Shown: piece by piece, positions 3,688 through 27,295 of the stretch
Position numbering within the stretch: position 1 is the first letter of the stretch
Layout: the number at the start of each line of letters is the position of its first letter
DNA from: a virus
Strand: one strand, 5' to 3'
Length of the DNA stretch: 34,700 bases
IMG/VR virus record: IMGVR_UViG_3300047355_000180
Span: 1 to 34,700 of that record
Notes under the pieces: model-generated
What the model was told of the DNA's origin: nothing
The model's database searches: none
What the model saw: only the letters and a program-made list of their open reading frames with translations
Made by a program: the position numbers and the translations under genes

Positions 3688-3690
3688 TTA

Positions 3691-3712
3691 AAGCCCTTCG
3701 GGGCTTTTTTAT
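3691..3712 (+). terminator. Rho-independent terminator of the small-gene operon
   Basis: AAGCCC-TTCG-GGGCTT followed by a T-tract. The T-tract overlaps the stop codon (3709-3711, minus strand) of the leftward 52-aa gene, so the two convergent units end on the same few bases. Confidence 0.9.
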
Positions 3713-3867
3713 TTGTCTGTTTTTCTGCTATTAAACCATTTAATGTAATAACCATAAGCATCAGGACGGCTTAAATTAAACTTATCAGCCAAGTAATCAG
3801 GGCTTTTGGTATAGTCCATCTTTACTGATCTACTAAGCTTATCAAGATAATCATAATATTGTTTCAT
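3709..3867 (-). CDS. 52-aa putative helix-turn-helix protein
   Basis: MKQYYDYLDK to FNSRKTDK. The start ATG (3867-3865) overlaps the TGA of the NusG-like gene (ATGA), a sign of translational coupling. The segment SPDYLADKFNLSRPDAYGYY has the spacing of a helix-turn-helix (helix, turn around FNLS, second helix), but a single motif in such a short protein is weak evidence. As the third gene of the regulator operon it may assist or control its two partners. No family recognised. Confidence 0.6.
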   Translation of the reverse strand: MKQYYDYLDKLSRSVKMDYTKSPDYLADKFNLSRPDAYGYYIKWFNSRKTDK

Positions 3868-4394
3868 TTGTTTAACCTAATTTCATCTAAAGCAACTGTA
3901 ACGGCTCTTGCTGCGCCTAATATTTGCAAATTACCTATTAGATTACTGTCAGTGACTGATAATACAGATATCTGTAACCCGGAAAAAGGCCCACTATCAA
4001 TTTTTAATATATCATTTTTTTTATATCTCGGTTTAATTTGCTCAATACTATTTTTTAATTTACCTGTTTTATAACCAACAGGATATATTTCTTTTAGCTC
4101 GTCAATTACGCTGTCATGCAACCGATATGGTGATGTGCCATCGTACAATAGACCATAAACATTGCTGTATTTGCTTATTAAATCATAAATTTCTGTAAAA
4201 TCATCTATGTTAATCAGCAGATAACCCAGTAAAACAGGCAAAATATAGTTAATACGAACCCTGGATTTTTTCTGCTGCTTACTGCGCCTGACAGCTTTTT
4301 TCTCATACGGACTATAAACCTCAATATTGTTATCAGTTAATAGATCATGAATTTTAAATTCTGTGCCAGTTTTAACTTTTAATAAATACCACAT
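3864..4394 (-). CDS. NusG/RfaH-like transcription elongation factor
   Basis: 176 aa from ATG 4394 (MWYLLKVKTG); the longer in-frame extension is not needed. Residues 1-80 look like a NusG N-terminal (NGN) domain: the opening WYLLKVKTGTE, the NNIEVYSPY strand, and LLGYLLI where NusG proteins have PGYxxV. After a linker, residues about 123-150 form a KOW motif (YKKNDILKIDSGPFSGLQIS). Known NusG paralogues such as RfaH and UpxY bind RNA polymerase and reduce pausing and termination on chosen operons. The ATG overlaps the stop of the upstream GcrA-like gene (ATGA), and its own stop overlaps the next start. The inferred role is processive antitermination on phage transcripts, possibly the 23-kb late unit. 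Divergent from host NusG and lacking an N-terminal extension. Confidence 0.8.
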   Translation of the reverse strand: MWYLLKVKTGTEFKIHDLLTDNNIEVYSPYEKKAVRRSKQQKKSRVRINYILPVLLGYLLINIDDFTEIYDLISKYSNVYGLLYDGTSPYRLHDSVIDELKEIYPVGYKTGKLKNSIEQIKPRYKKNDILKIDSGPFSGLQISVLSVTDSNLIGNLQILGAARAVTVALDEIRLNK

Positions 4395-4975
4395 CAATAT
4401 TCCTTTACAGCAATAAGATTTCTGAATGGTGATGTTTTCATTAAAATATTGCATTGATACTCTGTACCACGCCAAGCATACTTACTATTTAATGTTAAAC
4501 TTTTGCCACTTAAATGTAGGTATCCACCACTAGATTTTAAATAATAACCTTTTCCAGGGGGCGCAAACTTAACAGGTATAATATTTTCAGACTGTGGTGC
4601 TTTTACTTTAATAAAATATTTAGGCGCATATTTACGCATTTTATAAAATGTAGATTGACTTACTTGAGCTAAATCACAAATATCCGGGGTACTGTATCCT
4701 GCCTCAAAAAGTCTACGGCATTTATGTATGACTTTAATGTCTGTATATTTTTTATATTGATTAGATACTTTTGGAACCAATTTAAACTTTATAGGTTCTG
4801 ATTTTTTTATATGACCGCGCTTCGGCAACGTATCCCGGTTACGATGTGCAAACTTATCAACAGCAGACTTAGTAGTACCTAGCTCGGTTGCAATCTGATC
4901 TACAGAAAGTGTTTCATCTTTCCATAATGTTATTATTTGTAATATCTTATCTTGTGTCCAAAATCTTTTAGGCAT
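4394..4975 (-). CDS. GcrA-like DNA-binding regulator with second HTH
   Basis: 193 aa from ATG 4975 (MPKRFWTQDK). Residues 5-54 match the GcrA N-terminal pattern: WTxDK, then LW, then LSVDQIATELG, TTKSAV and a basic end (HRNRDTLPKRG). GcrA in alphaproteobacteria binds sigma70 RNA polymerase and methylated promoters. Residues about 81-118 contain a second HTH-like segment (TPDICDLAQVSQSTFYKMRK), as in transposase/resolvase HTH proteins. The C-terminal part (KFAPPGKGYYLKSSGGYLHL) is unassigned. It is first of three overlapping leftward genes with the NusG-like gene. Divergent from the Cro-like gene at 5094. An 8-codon leader overlaps its start. Likely a regulator of the early/late decision; target sites unknown. 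Confidence 0.75.
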   Translation of the reverse strand: MPKRFWTQDKILQIITLWKDETLSVDQIATELGTTKSAVDKFAHRNRDTLPKRGHIKKSEPIKFKLVPKVSNQYKKYTDIKVIHKCRRLFEAGYSTPDICDLAQVSQSTFYKMRKYAPKYFIKVKAPQSENIIPVKFAPPGKGYYLKSSGGYLHLSGKSLTLNSKYAWRGTEYQCNILMKTSPFRNLIAVKEY

Positions 4976-5019: not shown

Positions 5020-5070
5020 ATTATAAGCAAAAACTTAATCCTTGCAAATAGGAAAACATTTCCTTATGAT
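5020..5070. promoter_or_regulatory. Divergent promoter pair sharing one palindromic -35 box
   Basis: TTGCAA at 5042-5047 is its own reverse complement. Rightward: TTGCAA, a 17-bp spacer, TATGAT (5065-5070), reading toward the Cro-like gene at 5094. Leftward: the same TTGCAA, a 16-bp spacer, and a perfect TATAAT on the minus strand (plus-strand ATTATA, 5020-5025), reading toward the GcrA-like operon. Polymerase could occupy only one direction at a time. Confidence 0.65.
5050..5064. promoter_or_regulatory. Candidate operator in the rightward promoter spacer
   Basis: Perfect inverted repeat AGGAAA-ACA-TTTCCT filling most of the spacer between the -35 (5042-5047) and -10 (5065-5070) of the rightward promoter. 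A repressor bound here would block that promoter and sit next to the leftward one. The Cro-like protein encoded at 5094 is the most obvious candidate ligand; the GcrA-like protein is the alternative. I saw no second full copy in the neighbourhood. Confidence 0.55.
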
Positions 5071-5093: not shown

Positions 5094-5306
5094 ATGAAAC
5101 ATACAATAGAATCAATTATTAAAAATTGTGGTGGCGCAAAATCTATTTCAGAGAATACAGAAATAAAACAAGATAGTGTCAGAAAGTGGCGTATCTTTGG
5201 CATCCCGGAATCTCGGTGGTCATGTATTATTAAACTACATAAAGGTAGATTAACACCTAACCAACTACACAAACTAAACAAGATTTGCAGAGGTGACTTC
5301 ACATGA
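5094..5306 (+). CDS. Cro/YdaS-like helix-turn-helix repressor
   Basis: 70 aa, MKHTIESIIK to KICRGDFT. It matches the Cro/YdaS layout: a first helix (IESIIKNCGG), an HTH (AKSISENTEIKQDSVRKW), the turn IPESRW and a final helix (PNQLHKLNKIC). AAAGGAGAAAAATA gives a strong ribosome binding site. It is the first gene to the right of the divergent switch and most likely binds the operator in its own promoter. Its stop overlaps the next start (ATGA). Small single-domain repressors of this type act as dimers. No CI-type repressor with a peptidase or dimerisation domain is present in the window. Confidence 0.75.
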   Translation: MKHTIESIIKNCGGAKSISENTEIKQDSVRKWRIFGIPESRWSCIIKLHKGRLTPNQLHKLNKICRGDFT

Positions 5307-11297: not shown

Positions 11298-11619
11298 AAA
11301 GAGAGAAGCAGGGTTAAAGAAAAGACAGTATCACCATGTGCCTGTCCAAGTGCTTAATGAGGTTGCAGATGCCATGACCGAAGGTGCTGACAAATATGGT
11401 ACTTATAACTGGAGATGGGAAAAACTGCATTACAGCGATTATTACAGTGCAGCACTAAGACATCTTATGGCATTTTATGGTGGTGAGGATCATGACCCGG
11501 ATTCGGGCTTATCACATATAACAAAAGCGATTGCTGGTCTTATTATATTGCGAGATGCTATGTTAAACGACTCTGTTGTTGACGACAGGTACGAGGCTAT
11601 AACTAGGCTTGATACATAA
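11287..11619 (+). CDS. dATP/dGTP pyrophosphohydrolase-like protein
   Basis: 110 aa. It appears to start at TTG 11287, inside the end of ninB, with TAGGAGTGAG ahead of it; no in-frame ATG exists before the conserved part. The sequence HHVPVQVLNEVADAMTEGAD, KYGTYNWRWEKLHYSDYYSA, ALRHLMAFYGGEDHDPDSGL, SHITKAIAGLIIL matches the phage dATP/dGTP diphosphohydrolase N-terminal family, with its helical E/D/H metal-binding residues (GGEDHDPDSG; H in SHITK). Such enzymes cut dNTPs to dNMP and PPi and, in some phages, help exclude a base from DNA. No PurZ or alternative polymerase is present here, so pool adjustment is the safer guess. The 3' end overlaps the convergent late gene by 17 bp. Confidence 0.75.
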   Translation: MKNKKREAGLKKRQYHHVPVQVLNEVADAMTEGADKYGTYNWRWEKLHYSDYYSAALRHLMAFYGGEDHDPDSGLSHITKAIAGLIILRDAMLNDSVVDDRYEAITRLDT

Positions 11620-13153
11620 CGTCGGCTAGGCTTTTGCCATTAATATAAAAATACATTGAACGTTTGCCATTAGCATTAATAATTACATCAGCGCAGGCCC
11701 ATGTTGACAGACCGACTTTGTAAGGTTGCTTTAGGGTAGAGACACCTGTCTGCCACGCACCGCCACTAATACCGGGTGAATGGCTGTGGCCTATTACAGT
11801 TTTATACATAGCATTGGCAAATCCCTTGATACTGCCTCTTGAGCCATTAGCGCCTCTATCGCCATGTTGTGATACGTCTATTCCTTTTATGTTCGCACGT
11901 TTGTTTGCATTAACAAATTTATAACAGCCCGGTATATATTTTTGAAAAGCGCACTCCAGTGCTGATTTATTTTTATAGGATATCTCAGCAAGTAACTCTG
12001 AGCCTATCGCTGCGTTATGTGGCTCTTTAAGGTGTCTGCCTTCATTCAAGTAACGCTCAATATGCCTGTCGTGATTGCTGTCTACTATCCAATTCTCTTT
12101 ACCTCCTGTCTGCACTATATGTGCCGCAGTATGCTTTAACTCCCACGCCAAACTATTCATACGCATATTAAAGACTTTTATCTTATCAAGTAATTTATGG
12201 TGATGTGATATAGATACGCCATCAAATACGTCATGGAATACGTGTATTTCTGGTTTAAGTCTACCGCACAAACTAGCTCTAGCTTTCAGTATAACTCTAT
12301 CATGCATAGCCGCGTGGTCATCACCTCTAACGATAGCCGCTGCGTTTTCACCGGGTTGCAGTCCATCTGGTGTCCAATACTGATCTAGAAAGTAAAAACC
12401 TTTACCATCCCAAATTATTTGTGTGTGATAAAACTTATCTCCAACAAGCTTTACATATGTTGCCGCAAACACATGATTGAATTTAGCCTTACCACCAGCT
12501 TTTGTTCGAGTGTACGTTTTACTGGTACAGCTACCTGTAGTTTGTAGCATCTTGGGTAGTTCATCACCCGGTGTTGCTGCTAACCGCAAGTGCAGTGATG
12601 TAGCGCCATAAACAACAGACCTCTGGCCGCTATGTGCTTGCATACCAGATAGCGGATCCATAGCAGTAGCTGTCAGGCGCAATCCAGACACCATGAATGA
12701 CTTGCTTAATATTAGGTCATCAAGCAATGCATAGTTATGTATAGCAACGGGCCACTGATAATCTTTTTTAGCTATCAGTGTGTTGTGTCTGTATTTTAGG
12801 GGAATGATTAACAACTGACTTTTGTGATGCTTACTAAACAGCTCTAGTGTGTCAAAAAACTTTTGGTTTAATGTGCTGTTATTTGTTGCAGATGTTATTA
12901 AAAATGATTTATACTTCTTTGCAGCTTTTATATCTAAGTTACTTGGACACTCTACGTCATTTGTTTTATATTTAGGATTATGTGGCTCAAGCTTTATACC
13001 AAGAATACTTTGTGTATTGCTTTTATGCTGTCGCATCGCGCGTTCTGTATTTGTGCAAATACCAGCCTTTCGCATAGCATCAGCAAGTGATGTGCTGTTA
13101 GGCCAAACTTCTGCAATTTTTCTGGCGCGTTCAATGCTAGTGTATGTTTTCAT
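11603..13153 (-). CDS. T5 A1-like metallophosphoesterase
   Basis: 516 aa from ATG 13153, overlapping the previous TGA (ATGA). The C-terminal half holds the five metallophosphoesterase motifs in the correct order: GDDHA (about 277-281; D-x-H), HDVFDG (about 307-312; D-x-x-D), SNHD (about 359-362; GNH(D/E)), a lone H in SQHGDRG (about 430), and GHSH (about 455-458; GHxH). All metal ligands are present. The N-terminal 50 residues have an HTH-like arrangement (TSLADAMRKAGICTNTERAM). The overall build resembles protein A1 of phage T5, implicated in host DNA destruction and second-step DNA transfer, and A1-like proteins annotated in marine phages. The likely role is a two-metal nuclease or phosphodiesterase; the substrate is inferred. 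It is the last gene of the late unit. Confidence 0.75.
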   Translation of the reverse strand: MKTYTSIERARKIAEVWPNSTSLADAMRKAGICTNTERAMRQHKSNTQSILGIKLEPHNPKYKTNDVECPSNLDIKAAKKYKSFLITSATNNSTLNQKFFDTLELFSKHHKSQLLIIPLKYRHNTLIAKKDYQWPVAIHNYALLDDLILSKSFMVSGLRLTATAMDPLSGMQAHSGQRSVVYGATSLHLRLAATPGDELPKMLQTTGSCTSKTYTRTKAGGKAKFNHVFAATYVKLVGDKFYHTQIIWDGKGFYFLDQYWTPDGLQPGENAAAIVRGDDHAAMHDRVILKARASLCGRLKPEIHVFHDVFDGVSISHHHKLLDKIKVFNMRMNSLAWELKHTAAHIVQTGGKENWIVDSNHDRHIERYLNEGRHLKEPHNAAIGSELLAEISYKNKSALECAFQKYIPGCYKFVNANKRANIKGIDVSQHGDRGANGSRGSIKGFANAMYKTVIGHSHSPGISGGAWQTGVSTLKQPYKVGLSTWACADVIINANGKRSMYFYINGKSLADVMYQA

Positions 13154-13728
13154 CAACTAGTTCTTTTGTAATGCTCATCTTCATAGCTAGTATTTTGACC
13201 CCGGCTACCAAACCACCAGCCAACTACCATTGCAGTCATATTGACTAATGCCAAGTCAAAAGGATTTGCAAGCATCTGGTCAAACGCAGTGCCTATCAAT
13301 GCTACTTGGTCATTTAAGTTAGTTACATCTTGCGTTAGCTTATCTGTAATAGCGTAGTATTCACTTGTGCGTATACTTGTCATTAAAACTAAATACCAAG
13401 TGATGCCGGGGCGCGTTATAGATCGCATAAAGTTTGCAATGTCACCTAACATTGACTTGCCCCATCTAATCTTGCTCAGATTGTTTTCAGCATCTTGCGA
13501 GTTAGTAAACGCAGATATGTTGCCAGCGATTTCTGTTAGTGCAATCTCTTGCTCAGTTTCTTCACGCTTTGCTTTCATTGACATTTCAGTCAGTGCTAAC
13601 TCTTGCTCAAACTCCACCCGCATACGCTCTGTTTCATGTTTAAACATATTGCGCTCATGCTTACGCTGCAAGAACGCGCCAAAGATACCAACGCCTGTTG
13701 ATAGAATAGGGGATAAAATATCAATCAT
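13153..13728 (-). CDS. Multi-span membrane protein, holin-like
   Basis: 191 aa from ATG 13728 (MIDILSPILSTGVGIFG), preferred to the upstream non-ATG start. Hydrophobic segments: residues about 3-20, 110-125 (GITWYLVLMTS) and 155-175 (LALVNMTAMVVGWWFG). Between the first two is a charged coiled coil with a repeated pattern (EQELALTEMSMKAKREETEQEIALTEIAGN broadly, residues 41-70). The RP-x-TW-Y-L-V-L part recalls three-span holins associated with gene transfer agents and some phages. Its position after the endolysin supports a lysis role, but a virion membrane protein is possible. The start overlaps the endolysin stop. Confidence 0.6.
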   Translation of the reverse strand: MIDILSPILSTGVGIFGAFLQRKHERNMFKHETERMRVEFEQELALTEMSMKAKREETEQEIALTEIAGNISAFTNSQDAENNLSKIRWGKSMLGDIANFMRSITRPGITWYLVLMTSIRTSEYYAITDKLTQDVTNLNDQVALIGTAFDQMLANPFDLALVNMTAMVVGWWFGSRGQNTSYEDEHYKRTS

Positions 13729-14128
13729 CTGACCAAAACTCCAATGACTTATCACCACCAAACCAATGTCGGCGGCGACCTGTATCTATGTGTAAAAACG
13801 TCTGATAATAACCAAAGCCTGTAAACCCGGCAGACTTACACATAAAATTTAATTCTTCTTTGTTGTGATTACGCAAAGATATATCTACAGCAAGTTTTCT
13901 ATGCTTGCTCATTGGCACACCGCCTACAGCTAAATTATGCCTAAAACATCTATGTGCAGAGTTTATGTGCAACGGCTTTTCTATCTTTGTGCGTACCCAT
14001 TGAAGTTTGTCTAAAAACTCTGGGTCATGATAGTATTGACCGCAATGTCTGCATGATAGCTCTTTGGCACTAAAGTTAGGCCATCGGTCACTATCCCAAT
14101 CGACTTTTATGTAATGTTTAGTTTTCAT
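13721..14128 (-). CDS. Endolysin, peptidase M15 (D-Ala-D-Ala type)
   Basis: 135 aa from ATG 14128 (MKTKHYIKVD). I rejected the longer upstream frame because it would lie over the previous gene. The M15A layout is complete: FSAKELSCRHCG (19-30), HINSAHRCFRHNLAVGG (54-70), SKHRKLAVDI (74-83; zinc ligands H76 and D82), and FGYYQTFLHIDTG (105-117; H113, with D115 beside it), ending RRRHWFG. It cleaves the peptide part of peptidoglycan to release virions. No signal peptide, so export through a holin is expected. It lies between two small membrane-protein genes, with start and stop overlaps on both sides. Confidence 0.88.
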   Translation of the reverse strand: MKTKHYIKVDWDSDRWPNFSAKELSCRHCGQYYHDPEFLDKLQWVRTKIEKPLHINSAHRCFRHNLAVGGVPMSKHRKLAVDISLRNHNKEELNFMCKSAGFTGFGYYQTFLHIDTGRRRHWFGGDKSLEFWSDD

Positions 14129-14417
14129 TCTTAATAATGAGTGCAGTGAGGTCTTTATGGTTTTGCCGCATTTCAACGCCCAAACTCTCAATGCTGCGCT
14201 CAACTCTTTTAACAGATTCACGTACATCATCTTTCCTTGCGAAGTTTTCATTCATATCATCTTTTAAGTCATCTATACGACTATGCGTTTTAGAATTGTC
14301 ATTGCTTATCTTAGCTGAGACCTGTCTATCTCTGGCAATAACACCGCCAACAAACGTTACTAATAATGCACAAAAAGTTAATAATGTCTTAACATCTACG
14401 TTTGCCGGGTTTTCCAT
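14118..14417 (-). CDS. Single-span coiled-coil protein, likely lysis accessory
   Basis: 99 aa. Residues about 10-27 (LLTFCALLVTFVGGVIA) form one membrane helix; residues 30-95 are charged, heptad-like and hydrophilic (DDLKDDMNENFARKDDVRES, VKRVERSIESLGVEMRQNH). The build of one N-terminal span plus a long coiled coil is shared by some holins and spanin-like proteins and by hemolysin XhlA-type proteins. It overlaps the endolysin gene by 11 bases. Lysis function is inferred from position and topology. Confidence 0.65.
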   Translation of the reverse strand: MENPANVDVKTLLTFCALLVTFVGGVIARDRQVSAKISNDNSKTHSRIDDLKDDMNENFARKDDVRESVKRVERSIESLGVEMRQNHKDLTALIIKNEN

Positions 14418-14421
14418 GATC

Positions 14422-17400
14422 TTAACTTTCTAGCGCTGTAAGGCGTGTTTCTAGTGCTTCAATCTTAGCAATAGCGTCTTGTAGTGCAGATGTTAGCAAT
14501 GGCACAATCTTACTTTGATCAATGCCTTGGTAATCTGGAACCTGTTCAGTTTCAGTTACAGCTGGTATCTCAGAAGTTAGCTCATTACCTTCTTCATCAT
14601 ACGTTGCTTCAATTAAGGGAGTAATAATATTTACTTTATCACGCATTGCATCTTTTTGACCAACAATCGCTTCTGGCACTACCTCTTGCGCTTCATGTGC
14701 TATGAAGCCATCTACCCTAGTTCCATCAGTAATCCATTCAAAGTTTACTGGTTTTAGTGCTTTTACTCTGTCAATACTACCTTGCATAGGCTGTATATCA
14801 GTCTTGAGCCTATAGTCTGAGCTAGTAGAATAAATTGTATTAGTACCCAGTGTGTTAATCTTGCCTACTTGTCCATTGCTATTTTCAAAGCTATGATGTG
14901 TACGCAAGCTAGTAGTTCCTGCTGAAACTGATACAATAGCAGGTGTGCTACTATTTATTACAGGCACTTCAAATGCACCATTGTTAGAGCTTGGATTAGC
15001 ACCAGATATATTAAGCTGTCCTGTCATTACAACTTGACTTAAACCTATTGAGATTTGTTGAGTAGATGATTGGCTTCGCTGTAATAATAAATCACCACCA
15101 TAGCTTGATACAACTCTATTACCTGCTACTACTAAATTTTGATTAAAGTAATATCTAGTCCTGTCAGTGCTAAAGTGACAATAACTTGTATTCTGTGGCC
15201 CAATCTCAACAAAACCACTATTGGAAGTAATTCTTACCCCATTACCGCTCCCTTCACTAATCTTAGTGTTAGTATCCGCAATGTTTATGTGTCCACTGAC
15301 TTTTATATTACCAACTACGTCCAATTTCTCGGCAGGAGATGTAACTCCTATACCCACGTTACCTAAATAATCAACACGCATACGTTCATTTAATCCAGTA
15401 GGTGTTGTTCCGCCTGTAGTCGCATTATTTGTATAAATAACAAATGCGCCTTCACCTTCTTTTTCTTGTGAGCTGGCGTCACTGTTAGGCCCTACTTCAG
15501 CACCTATACGTACTTGTGGAACCTCATTTGCATTACTGTCGTAGAGTGCAAAGTCTATAAATGTTTTTTGTTGTGATAAGTCACCATTTACATCGTTATC
15601 TAATCTTAGTAATGTAGAGCCTGTTGTACTACCTGACGTATTTGTAACGTCTTTAATATGGATCTTAGCAGTCGGGGCTAATGTACCCACGCCCACGTTA
15701 CCGCCCTCTGGATTAAGCAACAAGTCATAAGTTGCTGTACCTAAGTTTGATACAAAGCCTGCTTGTATATAGCTTTTAAATCCAGATGTACTTAATGTAC
15801 CAAATAACATACCATTACCGCCAGTACCTTCAACACACAGGTTAGAGTTAGCTTCAGTTACAGTTGAGTTAGATGAACCTAGTATTGCCATTTTAGCAAC
15901 TGGTGACGTGTGTCCCACGCCAAAATTACCATTACCTAATAGCGTTGTCTTAATACTGTTATTCGTAATAGTGTAGATTGGAATGTTATCGTATGTACCC
16001 CACTGATAGTTAGTAGCATTACCTGTTTCTAATCTGTGATAGAACGTACTGTTATCATAAGCATATATAGCTAGCTTCTGTCCTGCTGAACCTGCTTCCC
16101 ATTGTCGTGTATCAGCTGTACCTTCAACAAACATTTTATCAGCAACAACTGTACCTGTTACTTCTACACCAGTGCTTTTAGCAACTAAAACATTGTCTTG
16201 CGAACCAACATTAACAACAAATTTAGGGTCTGAACCTGTTTCGTCTTTATCAACGTGCATAAATAAGTTACCAACACCACTATTACCATCAATAGAATGA
16301 GTTACACTCGTAGAAGTATCGGTAAGAAATATCTCTGGGTCTGTGGATGCTACAGTAATCTTACCTGTTACATCTATACCATCTGAATCAATCCTGAGCT
16401 TTTCTACATTTGATGCGTTTCTAAAGCGCATATTGTTATCAAAAGTTAAGTAAGAAGCCGAACCACTTTGTGTAATATCTAGTGTATTACTACCATCAGA
16501 ATCAACTAAACGAATAGTTGGTGATGTGCTTTCAATATGAAGCTCATGTGCAGGGCTTGTAGTACCTATGCCTACACCCGTACTATTAATACGCATACGT
16601 TCTGTACTAGCATCCGTATAAAATATATGTGCATCTGCACGCCCATCAGTATCTGACGTTTGTATTGAATACCAATTAGCGGCAAAGCCACCCGCACTTG
16701 TTCTACCTTGTATAGTAAAGTTAGCACTGTTGTCCCACTGTAATGTAGCCATCTCACCTGTATCAGCTAATGTGGTATTAGAGATATCTATTCTACGTGT
16801 GTTAGAACCTTTAACTTTTAGTTCCCTAAATAATGCACCGCCTGTAGAATCTATATTAGCTACTTCGCCACCACTATTTTCAAACTTAATAAAGTCATTA
16901 GTAGTTGTACCACCGCCATTTCTTAAGAATGTCATAGTAGGGCATAGTGAGCTATCTTCGTCATTAATAACGATTGAGCCTGTACCACCACCTGTAAAGG
17001 TTGCGTCACCTTCTATGGTTAATCCGTCACCTACAACATTACCTGTTACATCTATACCTGAAGCGGACGTTTCAAGTTTCTTGTTACCATTATAATACGC
17101 GGAAACAGAACCATCTTTGGTTGCAACAACCATATTTTCTGTACCACCCAACAAACTAATATTACCGCCTGTGGTTTCTAGTTTTAAGTTACCTGTGCCA
17201 CTGTCCTTTATATATGAATGACTAGCGTCGTGATAGATTTGTAAGTCTGAGCTAGTTCCATACTTAGCTTTAACACTGTCGTTAAACAGTATATCGCCTG
17301 TCATAGTGCCACCAGCTTTAGGTAGCGCAGCATCAGCAGTAGTACCCTGTGCGGCAGTAGCATAATCAGATGAATCAAATGCTTTAACTTGTGCTAAGTT

Positions 17401-18387
17401 AGTAACCTCAGAATCCATCAAGGCTCCTGCGGCTGTTACGTTAGCAGTATCTGTTATGTTAGCACCTGCTTCTATGCCATCAAGTTTAGTACCATCAGCA
17501 GCTACGTCGCGGCCATCTACTGTGCCTGATAGGGTTACGCTCCCAGTAAAGTTTAAGTTACCTGTGCCTGTAATATCGTGGCTGTTTAAGTCTAAATTGC
17601 CGCCAAGTTGTGGTGTAGTGTCGTCTACAACGTGTGCTATGCCGCTAGTGCCGCCTGTTGCAGATATAGTACCATCAGCCGCTATAGTTACATTTGTACC
17701 AGCGGTTAGCGACGCAACAACATTTGTTGTATCTGTAACATCAGCCGCTGTTTCTATTCCGTCTAATTTTGTGTGATCAGCATCTGTAAATGCGTTTGTG
17801 TTGCTGTTGCTTTCGTATGCGGTTTTAATCTGTGTTGCTGTCTGGTCTGCTGTTGCACCCGGCTCTATACCGCTAAGTTTGCTTACATCAGCGTCAGCAA
17901 AATTGTTTGTGTTTGCATTACTCTCATACGCAGTTTTAATTTGCGCTGCTGTCTGATCTGCTGTTGCTCCAGATTCAATGCCGTCAAGTTTTGTGCCATC
18001 TGCTGATACATCACGCCCATCAATAGTACCTGTTATTGCAATATTGCCTGTGCCTGTAATATTGCGATTATTCAAATCAAGATTACCGCCAAGCTGTGGT
18101 GATAAATCTTGCACAAGTGCAGTAATACCAGATGTGTTAGTTGCATTAGCCCATACAGTGCCATTGTAGACAAGTATTTGACCGCTAATAGCATTGTTAA
18201 CTTGCACGTCTGTGATGTTGCTAAGTATATGATTGTGACCATTATCTACAACTGTTACGGCAATGTCTATATCGCCTGTTGTATAATCTAACGTACCACT
18301 ACCTGTTGCTTCTCCAGTAAGGTTTGTTGTTAGATTTGTAGGTATGGGTACGGGTGAACCACCAGCACTATCTTCAGCTATTGGCAT
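14422..18387 (-). CDS. Long tail fibre with S74 autocleaving chaperone
   Basis: 1321 aa. GGAGAG lies just before the ATG. The N-terminal 350 residues are built from repeated modules: about 37 aa beginning KL(D/S)GIE.GATADQTA and continuing to TNxFxDAD, twice in tandem, and copies of LGGNLDLN...GTGN and GT(I/V)DGRDV(S/A)ADGTKL. The middle 800 residues contain many beta-strand repeats with NVG(I/V)GTxxP and ERMR(I/V)xxxGxVGIG motifs, typical of trimeric fibres. The last 133 residues are a peptidase_S74 chaperone: SSDYRLKTDI (from about 1189; cleavage next to S, with D as partner), FIAHEAQEV, and a terminal coiled coil. It folds the trimer and cuts itself off. Receptor binding is expected but the receptor is unknown. 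Confidence 0.88.
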   Translation of the reverse strand: MPIAEDSAGGSPVPIPTNLTTNLTGEATGSGTLDYTTGDIDIAVTVVDNGHNHILSNITDVQVNNAISGQILVYNGTVWANATNTSGITALVQDLSPQLGGNLDLNNRNITGTGNIAITGTIDGRDVSADGTKLDGIESGATADQTAAQIKTAYESNANTNNFADADVSKLSGIEPGATADQTATQIKTAYESNSNTNAFTDADHTKLDGIETAADVTDTTNVVASLTAGTNVTIAADGTISATGGTSGIAHVVDDTTPQLGGNLDLNSHDITGTGNLNFTGSVTLSGTVDGRDVAADGTKLDGIEAGANITDTANVTAAGALMDSEVTNLAQVKAFDSSDYATAAQGTTADAALPKAGGTMTGDILFNDSVKAKYGTSSDLQIYHDASHSYIKDSGTGNLKLETTGGNISLLGGTENMVVATKDGSVSAYYNGNKKLETSASGIDVTGNVVGDGLTIEGDATFTGGGTGSIVINDEDSSLCPTMTFLRNGGGTTTNDFIKFENSGGEVANIDSTGGALFRELKVKGSNTRRIDISNTTLADTGEMATLQWDNSANFTIQGRTSAGGFAANWYSIQTSDTDGRADAHIFYTDASTERMRINSTGVGIGTTSPAHELHIESTSPTIRLVDSDGSNTLDITQSGSASYLTFDNNMRFRNASNVEKLRIDSDGIDVTGKITVASTDPEIFLTDTSTSVTHSIDGNSGVGNLFMHVDKDETGSDPKFVVNVGSQDNVLVAKSTGVEVTGTVVADKMFVEGTADTRQWEAGSAGQKLAIYAYDNSTFYHRLETGNATNYQWGTYDNIPIYTITNNSIKTTLLGNGNFGVGHTSPVAKMAILGSSNSTVTEANSNLCVEGTGGNGMLFGTLSTSGFKSYIQAGFVSNLGTATYDLLLNPEGGNVGVGTLAPTAKIHIKDVTNTSGSTTGSTLLRLDNDVNGDLSQQKTFIDFALYDSNANEVPQVRIGAEVGPNSDASSQEKEGEGAFVIYTNNATTGGTTPTGLNERMRVDYLGNVGIGVTSPAEKLDVVGNIKVSGHINIADTNTKISEGSGNGVRITSNSGFVEIGPQNTSYCHFSTDRTRYYFNQNLVVAGNRVVSSYGGDLLLQRSQSSTQQISIGLSQVVMTGQLNISGANPSSNNGAFEVPVINSSTPAIVSVSAGTTSLRTHHSFENSNGQVGKINTLGTNTIYSTSSDYRLKTDIQPMQGSIDRVKALKPVNFEWITDGTRVDGFIAHEAQEVVPEAIVGQKDAMRDKVNIITPLIEATYDEEGNELTSEIPAVTETEQVPDYQGIDQSKIVPLLTSALQDAIAKIEALETRLTALES

Positions 18388-18398
18388 TTAACTCTCCA

Positions 18399-18680
18399 TT
18401 ACCATTTTACGCGGTCAGCCCAATAAGCTGCGCTTGATTTACCTTTTGCTATGTTCTTGCGATGTCTCGCTTTAAAACTAGCTCTCTTTTTCTTCATACG
18501 TTGGCTCTCACCAGACTTAGGCTTTCCTGCTGTACTAGCACCTTGCTGTCCAAAGCGTATGATCTTCTCTTTGCCGTCATAACATGATTTTACAACGTGC
18601 GACTTTGTTTTATGCCCCGGTGTACGTTTGGGTTTGTTGCACTTCATATTAGCTTTAAGTATGGGTTTGCGGCTAATCAT
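18399..18680 (-). CDS. Small basic conserved phage protein
   Basis: 93 aa, highly basic. It runs from MISRKPILKANMKCNKPKRT to SAAYWADRVKW. An in-frame ATG at residue 12 (MKCNKPKRTP) is another possible start. The segments HKVV-like KSHVVKSCYDGKEKIIRFG and SFKARHRKNIAKGKSSAAYW are conserved in a small protein family of marine and other podoviruses whose role is not established. Composition suggests nucleic-acid contact, perhaps a virion protein packed with DNA. The start overlaps the 557-aa gene's stop by four bases. Confidence 0.7.
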   Translation of the reverse strand: MISRKPILKANMKCNKPKRTPGHKTKSHVVKSCYDGKEKIIRFGQQGASTAGKPKSGESQRMKKKRASFKARHRKNIAKGKSSAAYWADRVKW

Positions 18681-20350
18681 TTTTTGTAAGCATCTGGCGT
18701 TGTTTTTAATGTGAGTGCCTGACCTACTTTAGCGCCTAATACTCTACTAGCATTATTAATTATATTTTTCTCTTTTTGCGTTAATACTCTAGCTTTACCT
18801 TCTAATTGTAATAAATTAATTATTTTACGTGCATCAGCTTTTGCTTGTTTATTTACAACAAATTTTACAGCTTCAGCGCCACCTAATAAAGTTGCAGCCA
18901 ATCCAGCTTTACCAGAAACTGCACCAGCTAATAATGATAACGCACCAATTGGCCCCATTGCCGCTGTTTGATTAGTTATTGCCAAATCTGCAACCATATC
19001 AGCCATTCCATTTTTAGAGTCTACTATATCTGATACTTCATTTGCAATTACTTGCTGTTGTTTATCTTTGTCAGGTCTAGCTCCGCGTGTATTTTTTGTT
19101 TTTTGCATAGCCATATTAGCTTGTTGTACATCTCTTAGTGCAGATTTTACTTCACTTCGTTTACCCATTGTTCCAGCAATTGGATTACCAAATTCATCGT
19201 AATTATTTGGCCTACCTACAAGTCTTTCCAATGGTTCAATTTGTGCAAATTGTGCATTTTTCTTATTTCCTAAAATAAATCGTGATTGTGAAAAACGTGC
19301 CGCAGGATTACTATATTTTAATATATTTTTATTTAAATTGTTATTAATTTGTCTAAGCACTTCCCTTTCATTTTCATTAAATTTACCAAAATTACTATTT
19401 ACTTTTATTTGCTCATTAAATAAATCATTAGTTGTAAATTCTTTTTTTGACACTGTTGTGTTTGGTATTACAGGTTCATTTTTTGGTATTGTACTGTATG
19501 GTTTTAATCCCATTGCTTTAAATTCAGCTTGTACATTATTTTCAGGTAATATATTGTTTGTTGGTTGCTTAATTGGTTTAATTTGTTCGCGTAATTTGCT
19601 AAAATATACGCCTACTTTACTGCCATCAGGCAATTGCGCTAGTCTATTTGTATCTACTCCATCTAATGCAAATCCAATTACATCATCTTCTATCGGTGCA
19701 CTTTTAGCTTGTGCTTCTTTATAATAATCATCTCTTTTTTTAATTATATCTACTGTGTTTACTTCGTTTTCTTTACGCAATTTAGTGTTTTTACTAGCAA
19801 TTCCAATATTTGCAGCTTTGTTAAGTCCATATTGTGCAAGCCCACCTGTCAAACCACCTGTTGCAGCAGCTTGTGCTGTTAATACTGGATTAAAATCTGT
19901 GTCAACACCAGTAGCTATCCCACTGTAAACAGCACTATCTAAAGCAGCGCCTTTACCTGTATTAGCTGCTTTTGTTAATTGGTTGCTTTTTGCTAGTTTT
20001 GGCGTTATCATACCGCCAGAATTTGCTGCTAGTTTGCGTCTTTTAAGCAATTGTGATGGCAACATACCAGCTTTCATGACTTTGCCAAAACCAAGTGCAG
20101 AGCCGCCAATATTTGAAGCAAGTGCTCTTTTATTTGCTTGTTCATATACTTGTTTATTGCGCTGTCTTAACAGTTTTTTTGCATTTTCGTACGATATATT
20201 ATTTTTACTTGCTAAAAAACGTGCCGCTATAGGGTCTGATATATTTGCCGTAGCACCACGTACTGCTTGATATGCAATCAATTGATTTAATAATGTCTCA
20301 CTTAAATCTGGCATTGGTGCATTACGTTTTGTATTTATATTGTAACCCAT
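18677..20350 (-). CDS. Putative internal virion/ejection protein
   Basis: 557 aa. The N-terminal 160 residues are alanine-rich and helical, with many basic residues (ENAKKLLRQRNKQVYEQANK). An alanine/glycine-rich part (ALDSAVYSGIATGV, QAAATGGLTGGLAQYG) resembles membrane-active segments of ejection proteins. Another such segment lies at 465-500 (GPIGALSLLAGAVSGKAGLA). The middle is low-complexity and rich in N, K and Q. No enzyme motif. It follows the transglycosylase gene by two bases, and podoviruses usually encode their ejected proteins as such a series, so ejection is the likely role. Confidence 0.6.
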   Translation of the reverse strand: MGYNINTKRNAPMPDLSETLLNQLIAYQAVRGATANISDPIAARFLASKNNISYENAKKLLRQRNKQVYEQANKRALASNIGGSALGFGKVMKAGMLPSQLLKRRKLAANSGGMITPKLAKSNQLTKAANTGKGAALDSAVYSGIATGVDTDFNPVLTAQAAATGGLTGGLAQYGLNKAANIGIASKNTKLRKENEVNTVDIIKKRDDYYKEAQAKSAPIEDDVIGFALDGVDTNRLAQLPDGSKVGVYFSKLREQIKPIKQPTNNILPENNVQAEFKAMGLKPYSTIPKNEPVIPNTTVSKKEFTTNDLFNEQIKVNSNFGKFNENEREVLRQINNNLNKNILKYSNPAARFSQSRFILGNKKNAQFAQIEPLERLVGRPNNYDEFGNPIAGTMGKRSEVKSALRDVQQANMAMQKTKNTRGARPDKDKQQQVIANEVSDIVDSKNGMADMVADLAITNQTAAMGPIGALSLLAGAVSGKAGLAATLLGGAEAVKFVVNKQAKADARKIINLLQLEGKARVLTQKEKNIINNASRVLGAKVGQALTLKTTPDAYKK

Positions 20351-20352
20351 TA

Positions 20353-22575
20353 CTATTGCCTACTCTTATAATTAAGATAACCATTTAAATCTTCAATTTC
20401 ATTATTTAAAAACAAATCATATGCTTCTTTTGTATCTAGTTTGCTGTAAGTGCCGCTACTATCAGAGTAACCTGGTATTCCCGCTGCTGTATTATGCTCA
20501 TGGAATTGTCCTAAGAATTGTATTTTAGCTATTTCTTCTCTGAGTGTTTCTGCTGACATTTTTACATTTAATTTATTTATAGTCTTAGCCATAATTTCTG
20601 TTTCATAATTTGATATTGAACCAGCACCTTTTAATATATCAACATATGCTTTTTTCGCTTTATTATCATTTATAAAATCATATATAGTTTTTATTTTTTT
20701 GTAACTATCATCATTAGCGCCAATAACATCTCTTCTTATTTGATTATCTAATATTCCAGATTGTCCAAATAATTTATTTAGTTGATCATCGCTGTAGTTT
20801 AATAACTCATTAAAATCTTTGTTATTTGTAAAATTTGTTTGCCTTATTGAAGATAAATTTTCTACACGTTCACCTGCTTCTTTACCTTGGGTTTCCTGAT
20901 GTTTCTCGTACATATTTTTATCCATCATTATGGTTATACCACCACCCATATCTACAGCTTTTGGAAAACCGCCAACACTATCGCTATTGTCTATTGCAGT
21001 GTATCCTGGTATAGTTTGGAAACTACCATCTGGTGTTGGGCCACCATACACTACTTCTCCTTTTTCATTTCTGTAATTACCAAATTGACTTTCTATAGCT
21101 TGCTTATCTAATCTTTGTTGCTTTATTGCATCTTGTGTATATGCCATATATTTTGAGAAATTATCTTCTGGCTGTGATGGATTACCATATCTGTCTGCCA
21201 TAATACTGCCTAGCAACCCTGCAAGATAACGTAAATTATTAGGTTTTTGTTTTTCACTATTAGGATCTACAAGATTACCATTAATGTCACGATAAACAGT
21301 TGTTGGCTCTCCTAATAAATTACGTGCTCTATCAAGTCCTGCTGTTTCGTTTTGGTCAAATGCAAAATCATCTTGTATAAAAGGTACTTTAACAGCGTTA
21401 CTCATATCCTGTAATATGCCTACACCTGTTGGCATGTCAGTATCACTAACACTATTACTTTGTTTACTACTGTTATATAGGGCTAAAACTTCTTCTTGTG
21501 TAAGTCCTTTTTCGTGTACAAATTCTTCACCATCTATTGTAGAGCTGTCAGTAGCAGTTTTATCTTTAAAACGATTACGCGCAGATATTGAGTTGCCTGG
21601 AATACCAAACCCACTTTGTGTGTAACTTTGTGCTACATCAGCATTTTGTTGCGGTTGTACTTGTTGCGGTATAAAACCTTTTTCTGCATTTAACATATCA
21701 TTTTTTTTATAGTTAAATTCTTGGTCAACATCTTGTGCGCGTTTTAATACATCTGCTTCTTGTTTTGTTAATGGTTCTTTAGGAAAAAGAGGTATGACTG
21801 TGGGTCTATCGCTAACTTCACCTTCTTTGTATTGTTTACTTAAATTTTGTCTTTTTATGCTGCCTTCTCTGTAATTATTTCTCATCATATCAATTGCACT
21901 TGGAGGACTGACAGGAATATCTTTTACTGTTAGTTCTGGCACTATATTATTGCTGTCGTCTTGTGCAGGTCTATCTAGTGGTGGAAACATTTTTTCAAAT
22001 GCTTCTTCATCAAAATCTTCGTAACTACCATCTTCTTTTATGTTAATTACAAAATCAGGACTTTTAGCTTTAGCATCGTTATAATTGTTTATATAACGAC
22101 CATATAAATTTAATTGTTGTGCTGGTGTCATTTTACTAATTTCATCAGTTGTTGTACCTAAATTTTTTGCAGTAGATTCTATAAATTGAAACAAACCTGT
22201 TGCACTTGAATCTGGATTTTTTGCAACTGGATTGTAACTACTTTCGCCTGATATTATTTGATATATATCTTTTTTATTTATATTTGGATTTTTGTTTAAA
22301 ATATTGTTTAACTCTGATTGAAAATTTGGGTCTGCCAAAAAAGGATAATCTGTTTCTACAGTTTCCATATCAACTTCCCGTTTAGCGTAATATTCATTTA
22401 TACCTTTTTTTGTTACATTACCACTATCGTCTGTCCAACCTGGATTTAACTGTGCTTGCGGTGAATCAGGCCCATATAATATTTCTTCATCTGACTTTTT
22501 TCTGTATGCTGGCGCACCCTGTAATATACCTAAAGGATTACCTCTGATTGCAAACATATTTGTTAGTGGTGACAT
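20353..22575 (-). CDS. Ejection protein with lytic transglycosylase domain
   Basis: 740 aa. Residues about 82-165 form an SLT/lysozyme-like domain: the ISGESSYNP motif with catalytic E111, then SSATGLFQFIESTAKNLGTT and PAQQLNLYGRYI. These are the hallmark E-S and GLxQF motifs. The rest (170-740) is long, charged and Q/N/D-rich without known domains, suitable for an extended protein packed in the head. In T7-like phages such a protein cuts peptidoglycan locally so the DNA channel can cross the cell wall. AAAAGAGAAAATT precedes the ATG. Confidence 0.8.
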   Translation of the reverse strand: MSPLTNMFAIRGNPLGILQGAPAYRKKSDEEILYGPDSPQAQLNPGWTDDSGNVTKKGINEYYAKREVDMETVETDYPFLADPNFQSELNNILNKNPNINKKDIYQIISGESSYNPVAKNPDSSATGLFQFIESTAKNLGTTTDEISKMTPAQQLNLYGRYINNYNDAKAKSPDFVINIKEDGSYEDFDEEAFEKMFPPLDRPAQDDSNNIVPELTVKDIPVSPPSAIDMMRNNYREGSIKRQNLSKQYKEGEVSDRPTVIPLFPKEPLTKQEADVLKRAQDVDQEFNYKKNDMLNAEKGFIPQQVQPQQNADVAQSYTQSGFGIPGNSISARNRFKDKTATDSSTIDGEEFVHEKGLTQEEVLALYNSSKQSNSVSDTDMPTGVGILQDMSNAVKVPFIQDDFAFDQNETAGLDRARNLLGEPTTVYRDINGNLVDPNSEKQKPNNLRYLAGLLGSIMADRYGNPSQPEDNFSKYMAYTQDAIKQQRLDKQAIESQFGNYRNEKGEVVYGGPTPDGSFQTIPGYTAIDNSDSVGGFPKAVDMGGGITIMMDKNMYEKHQETQGKEAGERVENLSSIRQTNFTNNKDFNELLNYSDDQLNKLFGQSGILDNQIRRDVIGANDDSYKKIKTIYDFINDNKAKKAYVDILKGAGSISNYETEIMAKTINKLNVKMSAETLREEIAKIQFLGQFHEHNTAAGIPGYSDSSGTYSKLDTKEAYDLFLNNEIEDLNGYLNYKSRQ

Positions 22576-22599
22576 AATTTTCTCTTTTATTATTAAATT

Positions 22600-23559
22600 T
22601 TATTTATTTAACATGCTGCCAATTAATGTACCTGCAAACGGATTTGCTGGCCCCATAGCAAGACCTAACAATCCTTTACCTATCATACTGCCAGCACCAC
22701 CGCTTTTAGATGTTGTTTCATTTGAAACAGAATCTGTATATTTAGGTGTAGCACCAAGTATGCCTCCCTCTATACCTGCTCTTCTGTAATAATCATCATA
22801 TTGCCTCATAGCTTCTTGATATTGTGCATCTAATTGTGCTTGGTCTAAACCGCGTTGTGTTTGCCCATATTGATTTTCTATTCCGTATGCCCTGTAATCT
22901 GCATCAGATAATTGTCCTGCCATATTACCAACTTGTGCTGCACCGCGTAAACGTAAATCTGCACCACGCAAACCAGCAGCTTGATTGTATGAGTCAGCCT
23001 GTAATTGCCTAGCAGCATCTGCTTGCAATCTAGCCGCTGCATCTTCATAACCTTGACTTCGTAATTGACCTATAGTTTTTGCAGTAATGTCAGCGTAATT
23101 ACGTTCATTTTCAGCTTGTTGTATTGCTTGTCTGGAGCCACCAAATGCAGCAGATTTAGCAGCTTGTGCATCTATATTTTCAGCACTTCCCATTTGTTTA
23201 CGTTCTATGTCACTAACTGTATTGTCAATAACTTGTTGTATATATGGATTCATATATCCAGATATGTCCATATCAGTAAAATTTTGTGTTTGTATTTGGT
23301 CTGGCGTATATTGCGCACCTTGTTGTGCCATTTCTAAACCTTGCTCCATAATACCACGATTGCTAACATTGTTTGACATATAATTAGACAATGCTTCTGT
23401 TTCCATGTCACTCATGCCAGCAACACGTTCACCTGTATATGGCGTGTATGCTTGTTCACCAAATGCTCTTGCATTTGATGCAGCAGTATTAATCATATTT
23501 TGTGTAAATGGATCTACTGTTTCATTTCTTTTTGTTTCTTTTTTTGTTTTACTGCCCAT
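22600..23559 (-). CDS. Putative internal virion protein, glutamine/alanine-rich
   Basis: 319 aa from ATG 23559 (MGSKTKKETKRN). A GGAGG lies just before it, inside a longer frame that starts at 23571, so the shorter start is preferred; it overlaps the upstream TAA (TAATG). The central part is a long helical, Q/A/R-rich region (SGYMNPYIQQVIDNTVSDIE, AQAAKSAAFGGSRQAIQQAE, AARLQADAARQLQADSYNQA). The C-terminus is glycine-rich and hydrophobic (GKGLLGLAMGPANPFAGTLI), possibly membrane-active. Proteins with the MNPYIQ...AFGGSRQA pattern are frequent in marine podoviruses next to the ejection genes. Confidence 0.65.
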   Translation of the reverse strand: MGSKTKKETKRNETVDPFTQNMINTAASNARAFGEQAYTPYTGERVAGMSDMETEALSNYMSNNVSNRGIMEQGLEMAQQGAQYTPDQIQTQNFTDMDISGYMNPYIQQVIDNTVSDIERKQMGSAENIDAQAAKSAAFGGSRQAIQQAENERNYADITAKTIGQLRSQGYEDAAARLQADAARQLQADSYNQAAGLRGADLRLRGAAQVGNMAGQLSDADYRAYGIENQYGQTQRGLDQAQLDAQYQEAMRQYDDYYRRAGIEGGILGATPKYTDSVSNETTSKSGGAGSMIGKGLLGLAMGPANPFAGTLIGSMLNK

Positions 23560-23930
23560 TACGGCCTCCATATTAAAGTTTTGCCATCTACAACAAAACC
23601 TAGTTTTTTTAATAATCTATTCCAGCCCTTACGATGCCCAAATGTTTCAATGTAACTACCACCTAAATCGTTTACATATTTTTTTGCGGCATCTACTAAA
23701 AGATAAAAGTCTTTTAAGTCTCCACCATATAGCCAAACATTTAATCCAACAGTGCCATCAGATTTGTTAGCTATTTCTGTTATTGCAGCGCTGTTATTAG
23801 CTGGCCAATATTGCGCTTCTTTGTTTATAACAGCCTCTTTAACTTCTTCATATGTATGCTCATGCCCTGAACGTGCTAAAGCGTTGATAATTTGTATTTT
23901 ATGATTATCTATGTTTACAATGCTGTCCAA
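23559..23930 (-). CDS. GNAT-like protein in the tail/ejection region
   Basis: 123 aa. No ATG is available in the frame; TTG at 23930 with GGAG about nine bases before it is the best start. The pattern of an N-terminal helix-strand, AQYWPANNSAAITEI, VWLYGGDLKDFYLL, then AAKKYVNDLGGSYIETFGHR, KGWNRLLKKLGF is that of shortened GNAT-fold proteins common in podovirus late operons. The acetyl-CoA loop (Q/R-x-x-G-x-G/A) is not preserved, so acetyltransferase activity is doubtful and a structural role is as likely. Overlaps both neighbours. Confidence 0.6.
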   Translation of the reverse strand: MDSIVNIDNHKIQIINALARSGHEHTYEEVKEAVINKEAQYWPANNSAAITEIANKSDGTVGLNVWLYGGDLKDFYLLVDAAKKYVNDLGGSYIETFGHRKGWNRLLKKLGFVVDGKTLIWRP

Positions 23931-24124
23931 GACAATACTCCAGAATTATCAATACTTGCACTGTAACGTGTTCCGTTAGGGCTTGTCAGTATTAATCTAT
24001 TATTTGCGTTTATATTTATATCTTCATTAATTTTACGTGTTTGCGTCATTTCATATGTAATATTACGACGTGTTTCTATTTCATTTACTGCATCATATGT
24101 TGGCGTAGCATCAGGTAGTCTCAT
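23915..24124 (-). CDS. Small tail-associated protein, unknown
   Basis: 69 aa, MRLPDATPTY to SGVLSWTAL. The C-terminal half (NANNRLILTSPNGTRYSASI) is strand-rich. The start overlaps the stop of the propeller-like gene (ATGA), and its end overlaps the GNAT-like gene by 16 bases. Position suggests a minor virion component. No family recognised. Confidence 0.65.
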   Translation of the reverse strand: MRLPDATPTYDAVNEIETRRNITYEMTQTRKINEDININANNRLILTSPNGTRYSASIDNSGVLSWTAL

Positions 24125-25623: not shown

Positions 25624-26087
25624 TAACTAAAACTCACTGTAACTGTATCTGAATTAATTACGTTGTTATCTGCATCTGTTACTTGGCATCTGTATACAGC
25701 GTTACCACCTGACAATGCGTAATTAAAACCAAATCTTGTAGCGTACTGCGTAGGGAGTTGTGGAAATAAATTTATGCTACTTACAGTGCCAGATATATAA
25801 AACCATTGATATGTAAATGGCGCTTTACCGCCTGTAACAGTTACCGCTGTATAACCTGTGCCGGGGCTACTTGTAACGCCTGTGTAACTACCTAAAGATG
25901 AGTTGTATGATGTAGATCCAGACAATGTTGTTTGTGTTAATGTAGCTTCAAATGCAGTAGAAACAACTTCCCATGCACTACCAGTCCATCTTTTCACACC
26001 ACTGTTAGGTTCTACCCACGCACTACCATTGTAATACTTAGCTGTTGCGTCTGCAAATGCAGTGCCGTTATACGTTTTTATTGCCAT
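25623..26087 (-). CDS. Ig-like virion protein
   Basis: 154 aa. The first 40 residues contain short repeats (YNGTAF, YYNGSAWVEP, RWTGSAWEVV), typical of phage attachment or coat modules. Residues about 55-154 are strand-rich and look like an immunoglobulin-type fold (GKAPFTYQWFYISG, YRCQVTDADNNVINSDTVTV), with a C in the expected F-strand position. Such domains decorate virions and may bind cell-surface sugars. It lies between the short fibre-like protein and the hub protein, overlapping both by the TAATG arrangement. Confidence 0.7.
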   Translation of the reverse strand: MAIKTYNGTAFADATAKYYNGSAWVEPNSGVKRWTGSAWEVVSTAFEATLTQTTLSGSTSYNSSLGSYTGVTSSPGTGYTAVTVTGGKAPFTYQWFYISGTVSSINLFPQLPTQYATRFGFNYALSGGNAVYRCQVTDADNNVINSDTVTVSFS

Positions 26088-26680
26088 TATGCCGTTGTAT
26101 CAAACCAAATGTCGTCTGTTAATGGGCTTGTAGGCGCTGTATTGCCTACAGTTATTGTTCTGCCATTACCACTTGCGTGTGCTACTTTACTATCTAATGC
26201 AGCTTGTAAGCCGTTTGTTTGTGCTATTGACAATGTGTTATCTGCTATTGTGCCAACACCTGTATCAAGTGTAAAATTACCTGTTCCGTCAAACGCTACG
26301 CTACCTGTAACAACGCCTGTTAATGTAACTGTTCTTGCAGTAGACCATTTATCTGCTGACGTTGCATTACCTGTTAATACAGCATCAGTGCCATCTGTGC
26401 CAGATTCAAGTATTTTGCTTGTACCATTACTTGCAAATACATCACCCGTAACATCACCTGTCAGTCCACCAACAAATGTTGGGCCTGTTATTGTACCTGT
26501 AAATGTGGGGTCAGCTAATGGTGCTTTTAATGCAACAGAATCAGCTACGCTCTTAATTACAGCATCAATACCTAGCGTGCCTGTTGTTGATCCTAAGTTG
26601 TCGTTCCAAGTGCCACCCCAAGTGTCTACACCACCTCCTGGCGTAATCATTGTCCATCCATAATTAGTTGTTGTTGCCAT
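26087..26680 (-). CDS. Short fibre-like or fibre adaptor protein
   Basis: 197 aa. It begins MATTTNYGWTMITPGGGVDT followed by WGGTWNDN, the usual start of phage tail-fibre and baseplate-attached proteins. Strand repeats follow (DPTFTGTITGPTFVGGLTGD; VTLTGVVTGSVAFDGTGNFT), then a short C-terminal tag with DDIWFDT. No chaperone domain. It shares the GDVTGD and LTGNATSA repeat style with long fibres and could be a side fibre, or the anchor to which the 1321-aa fibre binds. Confidence 0.7.
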   Translation of the reverse strand: MATTTNYGWTMITPGGGVDTWGGTWNDNLGSTTGTLGIDAVIKSVADSVALKAPLADPTFTGTITGPTFVGGLTGDVTGDVFASNGTSKILESGTDGTDAVLTGNATSADKWSTARTVTLTGVVTGSVAFDGTGNFTLDTGVGTIADNTLSIAQTNGLQAALDSKVAHASGNGRTITVGNTAPTSPLTDDIWFDTTA

Positions 26681-26681
26681 G

Positions 26682-27293: not shown

Positions 27294-27295
27294 AT

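Follow-up and report, generated by a model that had tools for sequence, protein, structure and literature searches.

The locus considered here raises the question of what a phage does with a NusG-family protein that is encoded in one operon with a DNA-binding protein, and whether this pair takes part in the expression of the late genes. To our knowledge, the way in which late genes are switched on in phages outside the relatives of lambda is mostly unknown. The window, meaning the whole stretch of DNA that was analysed, is one virus record, 34.7 kb long, of a marine virus that infects bacteria. The answer that we prefer, with a probability of a little under 0.6, is that this operon serves the phage as a cassette for late-gene antitermination, in which the protein P0001 would be a specialised NusG paralogue that is loaded at the late leader and antiterminates processively, as Q does. 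What can be read from the sequences is the NusG family and fold of P0001, the conservation of the pair, its relocation beside the terminase, and a promoter-proximal element that accompanies it.

The cassette and its surroundings

The cassette consists of three overlapping ORFs on the minus strand (4975-4394, 4394-3864 and 3867-3709), which bears out the operon given in a preliminary description of this DNA. According to that description both junctions are ATGA; this holds for the second (3867-3864), while the first is TGATG, with a 1-bp overlap at 4394. The features of the region are:

3690..3707, unstranded: terminator hairpin at the operon end, AAAGCCCTTCGGGGCTTT; scan match on the plus strand only
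3709..3867, minus: P0003, 52 aa, without a family, found only in the window-type cassette
3864..4394, minus: P0001, 176 aa, phage NusG paralogue with NGN and KOW
4394..4975, minus: P0002, 193 aa, two-HTH protein with a GcrA-type DNA-binding fold (6-47), a second HTH (~80-116) and a C-terminal beta-rich domain (143-192)
5020..5047, minus: sigma70-like cassette promoter from the promoter scan, TTGCAA-16-TATAAT, present in the relative L036 too
5050..5064, unstranded: operator-like palindrome AGGAAAACATTTCCT, read directly, between the cassette and the divergent Cro-like gene with their divergent early promoters
5094..5306, plus: divergent Cro/YdaS-like HTH gene, by domain and PHROG matches, first gene of the rightward early/replication operon

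The third protein had been thought a possible HTH protein, which we could not uphold, as Pfam and PHROG searches gave no family for P0003 and the sister lineages have no counterpart. The hairpin at 3690-3707 may be shared by both convergent operons. Promoter scan counts in the window were no higher than in shuffled sequence, and promoters are therefore argued here from conservation and not from the scan. A similar GGAAA-TTCC palindrome lies at the matching position in two relatives, L032 and L038. Among the replication genes of the window there is a phosphoadenosine phosphosulfate reductase-like gene (5858-6613), and Bradyrhizobium phage ppBeUSDA76-2 has an annotated PAPS reductase as well. 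The last rightward ORF (11287-11619) matches both phrog_2252 ('endolysin; inhibits RNA polymerase') and phrog_801 (dATP/dGTP pyrophosphohydrolase); the phrog_2252 label looks like a naming error.

P0001, a NusG-family protein

P0001 belongs to the NusG/Spt5 family, with an NGN domain above the curated cutoff and a C-terminal KOW, as the preliminary description had it. It matches PF02357 (NGN) with E=2.7e-14 and 53.9 bits (cutoff 22.2), as do 9 of the 9 aligned members of its family, and phrog_6386, 'transcription antiterminator', at 2.4e-20. Its profile reaches the NusG and RfaH chains of solved structure and aligns to the Aquifex KOW. An AlphaFold2 model built with nine homologues is of moderate confidence (pLDDT 72.5) and has an NGN-type domain followed by KOW strands at residues 129-174 that form a C-terminal beta-barrel; Foldseek matched this model to NusG, full-length NusG included, and to RfaH (best E 5.8e-10). 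The KOW is modelled as beta and not as alpha-helical, a prediction that is compatible with fold switching too. In Pfam, none of the three cassette proteins P0001, P0002 and P0003 matched the Q families PF06530, PF03589 and PF06323.

P0002 and its likeness to GcrA

The first gene of the cassette had been called GcrA-like. The likeness is real but confined to the N-terminal DNA-binding domain of about 42 residues. Here the model of P0002 superposes on 5yiu with an rmsd of 1.2, a TM of 0.74 by target and 40% identity over 42 columns (probability 0.99, but E=0.6), and the P0002 profile finds the GcrA domain at E 0.0034. PF07750 (GcrA) covers residues 6-47 only and scores 16.3 bits, below its gathering cutoff of 26.9, and the weak match is found in just 2 of 8 P0002 homologues. 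Full-length GcrA (7ye1_G) aligned to P0002 only at its residues 2-37, so that its sigma-interacting C-terminal part has no counterpart in P0002 by this profile comparison. P0002 instead carries a second and stronger HTH (HTH_23, 5.7e-8) and a C-terminal beta domain unrelated to GcrA. GANTC sites were found neither near the late promoter (7 leaders) nor in the intergenic region 4976-5093. Given the sub-cutoff score, the unmatched remainder and the lack of GANTC, P0002 should not be filed as GcrA, and the earlier suggestion of a functional GcrA working with sigma70 is not supported. Control of initiation by P0002 is speculation. Phage-borne GcrA is known from phiCbK (PMC3556154). P0002 has the N-terminal DNA-binding fold in common with Caulobacter GcrA and with phiCbK GcrA, but the phiCbK homologues are full Pfam members, unlike P0002 with its second HTH and other C-terminal domain (PMC3556154).

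Related loci

A terminase scan gathered 59 related loci. NusG is present in 13 of the 37 records searched, and P0002 in 12 of these 13; in the exception, G019, the contig begins at its NusG gene. Alignment-based scans gave 27 NusG loci and 25 P0002 loci on essentially the same viral contigs. The two genes adjoin in about 25 related contigs, at identities down to 33-38%, and the idea of a NusG/RfaH-class factor and a DNA-binding protein as a conserved unit thus stands. When bacterial genomes were scanned with TerL, the one match was a Bradyrhizobium prophage (54%), in a genome with only one NusG-family gene.

The cassette has also moved as a block. Between the window and L032, TerL is ~99% identical while NusG is 46% and P0002 ~56% identical, from which an exchange of the whole cassette between near-identical phages can be deduced. 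The exchanged regulatory cassettes lie at 3709-4975 in the window and at L032:3143-4269.

Two clades of relatives differ in where the pair is placed. In clade A the cassette opens the leftward early operon, which is an N-like and not a Q-like position. In clade B, whose TerL is 85% identical, a P0002 homologue is followed by NusG, ~310 bp, the small-terminase gene and TerL. The cassette here closes the early region and lies next to the terminase, in the position of lambda Q. The NusG gene is directly upstream of the late promoter in clade B and in other NusG phages, but not in the window.

These positions bear on two other explanations. P0001 could be an early antiterminator similar to N, acting on the rightward replication unit or the leftward small-gene units, with late genes activated at their promoter, perhaps by P0002. 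Lambda N is located near the lambda immunity region, and the window cassette is likewise the first leftward unit, beside a Cro-like gene and an operator-like palindrome; the two HTH motifs of P0002 would suit an activator. We nevertheless consider this unlikely, since in clade B the cassette closes the early region, next to the terminase, NusG stands just before the late genes in other phage groups, and the sole conserved promoter-proximal element that was found is in the late leader. It could also be that the two proteins have unrelated functions, P0002 being a repressor or timing regulator on the operator at 5050-5064, in a place similar to that of CI, while P0001 alone antiterminates the late genes. 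The divergent layout with the Cro-like gene, the intergenic palindrome and the restriction of the GcrA likeness to a DNA-binding domain are in line with this. In clade B, however, P0002 stays with NusG at a distance of ~5 kb from the Cro-like gene, which shows that its linkage is to NusG and not to the immunity region, and no integrase was found in the window; such a division of roles therefore seems quite improbable.

The late unit and its leader

The preferred reading, late antitermination by P0001, requires a look at the late unit and the start of its transcript:

11603..34408, minus: late unit of ~23 kb on one strand, with terminase, portal, capsid, tail, ejection proteins and endolysin
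34418..34528, minus: first late ORF, a 36-aa basic CX2CX5CX5C peptide (MKPCKSCTSPKTCQKMGKC...), conserved in both clades (L041:9569-9676)
34542..34584, minus: hairpin GCCTTTTGTTAGGGC (34584-34570), the second of the leader, with a T9 tract (34550-34542) after it; resembles a terminator in the fold prediction
34590..34620, minus: conserved late-leader element GCCGCGCG-TTCAA[ACAATA]TTGAA-GCCTCGC, ~+8 to +38, once in the window; proposed NusG loading site
34634..34661, minus: late promoter candidate TTGAAT-16-TAATTA, conserved in 16 clade A leaders, with a -10 region that aligns with clade B

The absence of a convincing internal T-tract terminator was confirmed for the transcribed strand of the late unit (34408-11603), where the three matches of the scan are all weak and lack a T run; these are 3 of 24 terminator matches, a lower share that strand base asymmetry could account for. 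The late unit had also been said to have no clear promoter of its own, and this did not hold. TTGAAT-16-TAATTA falls short of the strict consensus of a simple scanner, but this sequence or its clade B equivalent, TTGACA-17-TAAATA, is found in every relative whose sequence reaches the region upstream of the late unit, and the two clades align at the -10.

Downstream of this promoter the relatives share an element in which GCCGCGCGT at ~+8 is followed by a short inverted repeat (TTCAA/TTGAA in clade A, TACC/GGTA in clade B) and then by GCCTCGC. Aligned from the -10 region through the element, clade A and B leaders score 21.5, where the best of 300 simulated pairs reached 17.5; the four-fold sites of TerL are just 54% identical between the clades. 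The element is absent from relatives lacking NusG, and the records that have it without NusG are fragments ending before the expected position of the cassette. Together with the Q position of the cassette in relatives, this conserved element after the late promoter agrees with the earlier view that the late unit fits antitermination. One finding speaks against a specific reading of the element: the late leaders of the window and L032 are nearly identical despite their differing cassettes, which would be surprising if NusG proteins that are only 46% identical read it closely.

The leader hairpin is suggestive only, since shuffled sequence folds as well as the window leader does in RNA prediction (z -0.16) and the pairs of the leader hardly vary across relatives, with zero double changes; the element might be read as RNA, as single-stranded DNA or as duplex. 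In clade A the predicted leader fold ends at the T9 tract, which falls short of a standard definition of a terminator. Rfam gave nothing in the window leader. The 36-aa four-cysteine peptide encoded next is possibly a zinc-binding regulator.

NusG genes in other phage groups

An unrelated and mostly prophage-derived group was reached via the NusG of Nostoc phage Nsp-JY10, and comprises this phage and 44 viral contigs, many of the latter from isolate genomes. Here NusG is the last early gene and the late genes come after it (searches with two query terminases identified a terminase at roughly one locus in three). In 44 of 44 contigs the start of NusG is overlapped by a gene for an HTH_36-type protein; the HTH_36 domain was verified in five of the proteins from this group and its relations.

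Directly 3' of NusG in this group there is a conserved structured RNA of ~150 nt (alignment A7; e.g. L155:6522-6665 and L188:4672-4822). Its covariation score is 0.110 versus 0.065, and it has 34 double-change cells where 13.8 are expected (0 of 500 shuffles), a signal that collapses when slid. Searching for the RNA core as a DNA pattern gave 70 records, and in all 70 the NusG gene ends 21-29 nt upstream. An intrinsic terminator follows the RNA, before the late genes, in 49 of 55 distinct leaders, compared to 10 of 275 control windows. The RNA has no match in Rfam and probably represents a new family of regulatory RNAs. The model of this RNA does not match the window leader, so that the support from the second group is an analogy of layout. 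It also found nothing in 150 Bradyrhizobium-family genomes, which says only that the hosts of this RNA lie elsewhere.

Two further candidates were dropped. In the second group, an open -1 frame had suggested programmed frameshifting within NusG; this was rejected because frame 0 already holds the entire KOW domain. The 6-mer AGCCTC is common to the window element and the structured RNA, but this is insignificant by a rough estimate and the RNA model misses the leader.

NusG also occurs shortly before the terminase in phiLM21 (gp34), in Microcystis phage yong2 and in contig L134. In phiLM21 (gp33-gp34, L158:19398-20389) a DnaA_C-type HTH gene overlaps the NusG-like antiterminator gene by ATGA, and is another, unrelated HTH partner at the equivalent place.

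A possible mechanism

In the antitermination reading, P0001 would be made from the early or middle leftward promoter at ~5035 and would join host RNA polymerase soon after the start at the late promoter, ~34635. The nascent RNA or the non-template DNA would present GCCGCGCG-hairpin-GCCTCGC, at ~+8 to +38, for the loading of P0001. P0001 would then ride with the polymerase and suppress pausing and termination over the 23 kb of late genes, so that a NusG fold would take on the task of lambda Q. P0002 would be its DNA-binding partner, most likely marking the late promoter or leader or timing the cassette. We infer the binding to polymerase, the loading at the element, the antitermination and a role of P0002 at initiation; processive antitermination of the late unit by a leader-loaded NusG is the most economical account, comparable to the action of LoaP and RfaH on host operons and of Q in lambda.

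The Rho-contact loop raises a further explanation. In NusG, F165 is part of the loop I164-F165-G166 that contacts Rho (PMC7593976). This position is Leu in all aligned phage homologues except the outgroup L056; the loop reads ILG in the window, as clade A keeps I and G with F165 replaced, and FLS in clade B. The replacement is compatible with a loss of service to Rho, but proves nothing. P0001 might compete with host NusG and, acting at no particular site, alter Rho termination as well as the coupling of transcription to translation throughout the genome, and the Leu is what would be expected of a NusG no longer serving Rho. The location beside late genes in several phage groups and the linked conserved leaders argue for a specific target, and a general takeover of the host is in our opinion very unlikely.

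Comparison with known systems

Leader-loaded antitermination by P0001 would have several counterparts. LoaP, a NusG paralogue of Bacillus velezensis, has a long target operon and a gene near its target, as in the system proposed here (PMC12691694). Its leader has a conserved hairpin upstream of a terminator (PMC12691694), whereas the window leader has hairpins and a T9 tract with a fold no better than shuffles; the hairpin-then-terminator type is present in the second phage group, with its covarying RNA and terminators (49/55). The RNA hairpin that LoaP recognises is of UNCG type and belongs to polyketide operons (PMC12691694), while the window has a viral operon, another element sequence and a co-encoded HTH partner. 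RfaH and the NusG paralogues linked to plasmids or operons have, like P0001, NGN and KOW; their Rho-contact loop is altered (PMC7593976, PMC7819879), and in P0001 F165 of this loop is replaced while I and G are kept. They are recruited promoter-proximally to long foreign operons (PMC7593976, PMC7819879), a likeness that is proposed for the window, where a conserved promoter-proximal element is found instead of an ops sequence. Unlike the autoinhibited alpha-hairpin of RfaH, the KOW of P0001 is a beta-barrel in the AlphaFold2 model, and P0001 is phage-encoded and paired with P0002.

Lambda-type Q resembles the clade B system in its position before the late genes, in a promoter-proximal late-leader element and, presumably, in its job, with a fold unrelated to that of P0001 (PMC7171158). 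Q uses a binding element and a sigma-dependent pause at the RNA exit channel, and NusG paralogues bind elsewhere on the polymerase (PMC7171158). The 'transcription antiterminator' families phrog_6386 and phrog_25909 (phiLM21 gp34, Nsp-JY10) are of P0001's family by profile and likewise stand before the terminase; their partners and leaders differ from the window, with a DnaA_C-type HTH in phiLM21 and an HTH_36 protein and structured RNA in the second group.

Novelty and significance

The preliminary description had taken the joint system to be undescribed. This is right for the pair as such, as neither P0001 nor P0002 had a tblastn match at E<1e-5 among 50,697 annotated phage records, and no open-access paper was found that joins GcrA, phage and NusG. 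It is not right for phage NusG antiterminators in general, examples of which already carry annotations in PHROGs and in phages of rhizobia, H. pylori and cyanobacteria, among them phiLM21-like prophages (PMC12429752) and H. pylori prophages (PMC11321410). What is new here is the conserved cassette of HTH and NusG genes, the element in the late leader and the structured RNA linked to NusG.

It is possible, though we would put it somewhat below an even chance, that phage NusG paralogues are a widespread class of late antiterminators, each with a dedicated leader: a ~150-nt RNA before an intrinsic terminator in one group, and a short hairpin element after the late promoter, along with an HTH partner, in the window lineage. 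If true, phages would have, in addition to N and Q of lambda, a third way of doing this job, one based on NusG. A leader-specific antiterminator with a NusG fold would account for the expression of late genes in many prophages and environmental phages, those of alphaproteobacteria and cyanobacteria among them, and NusG with its leader would make a directly testable pair of NusG and nucleic acid.
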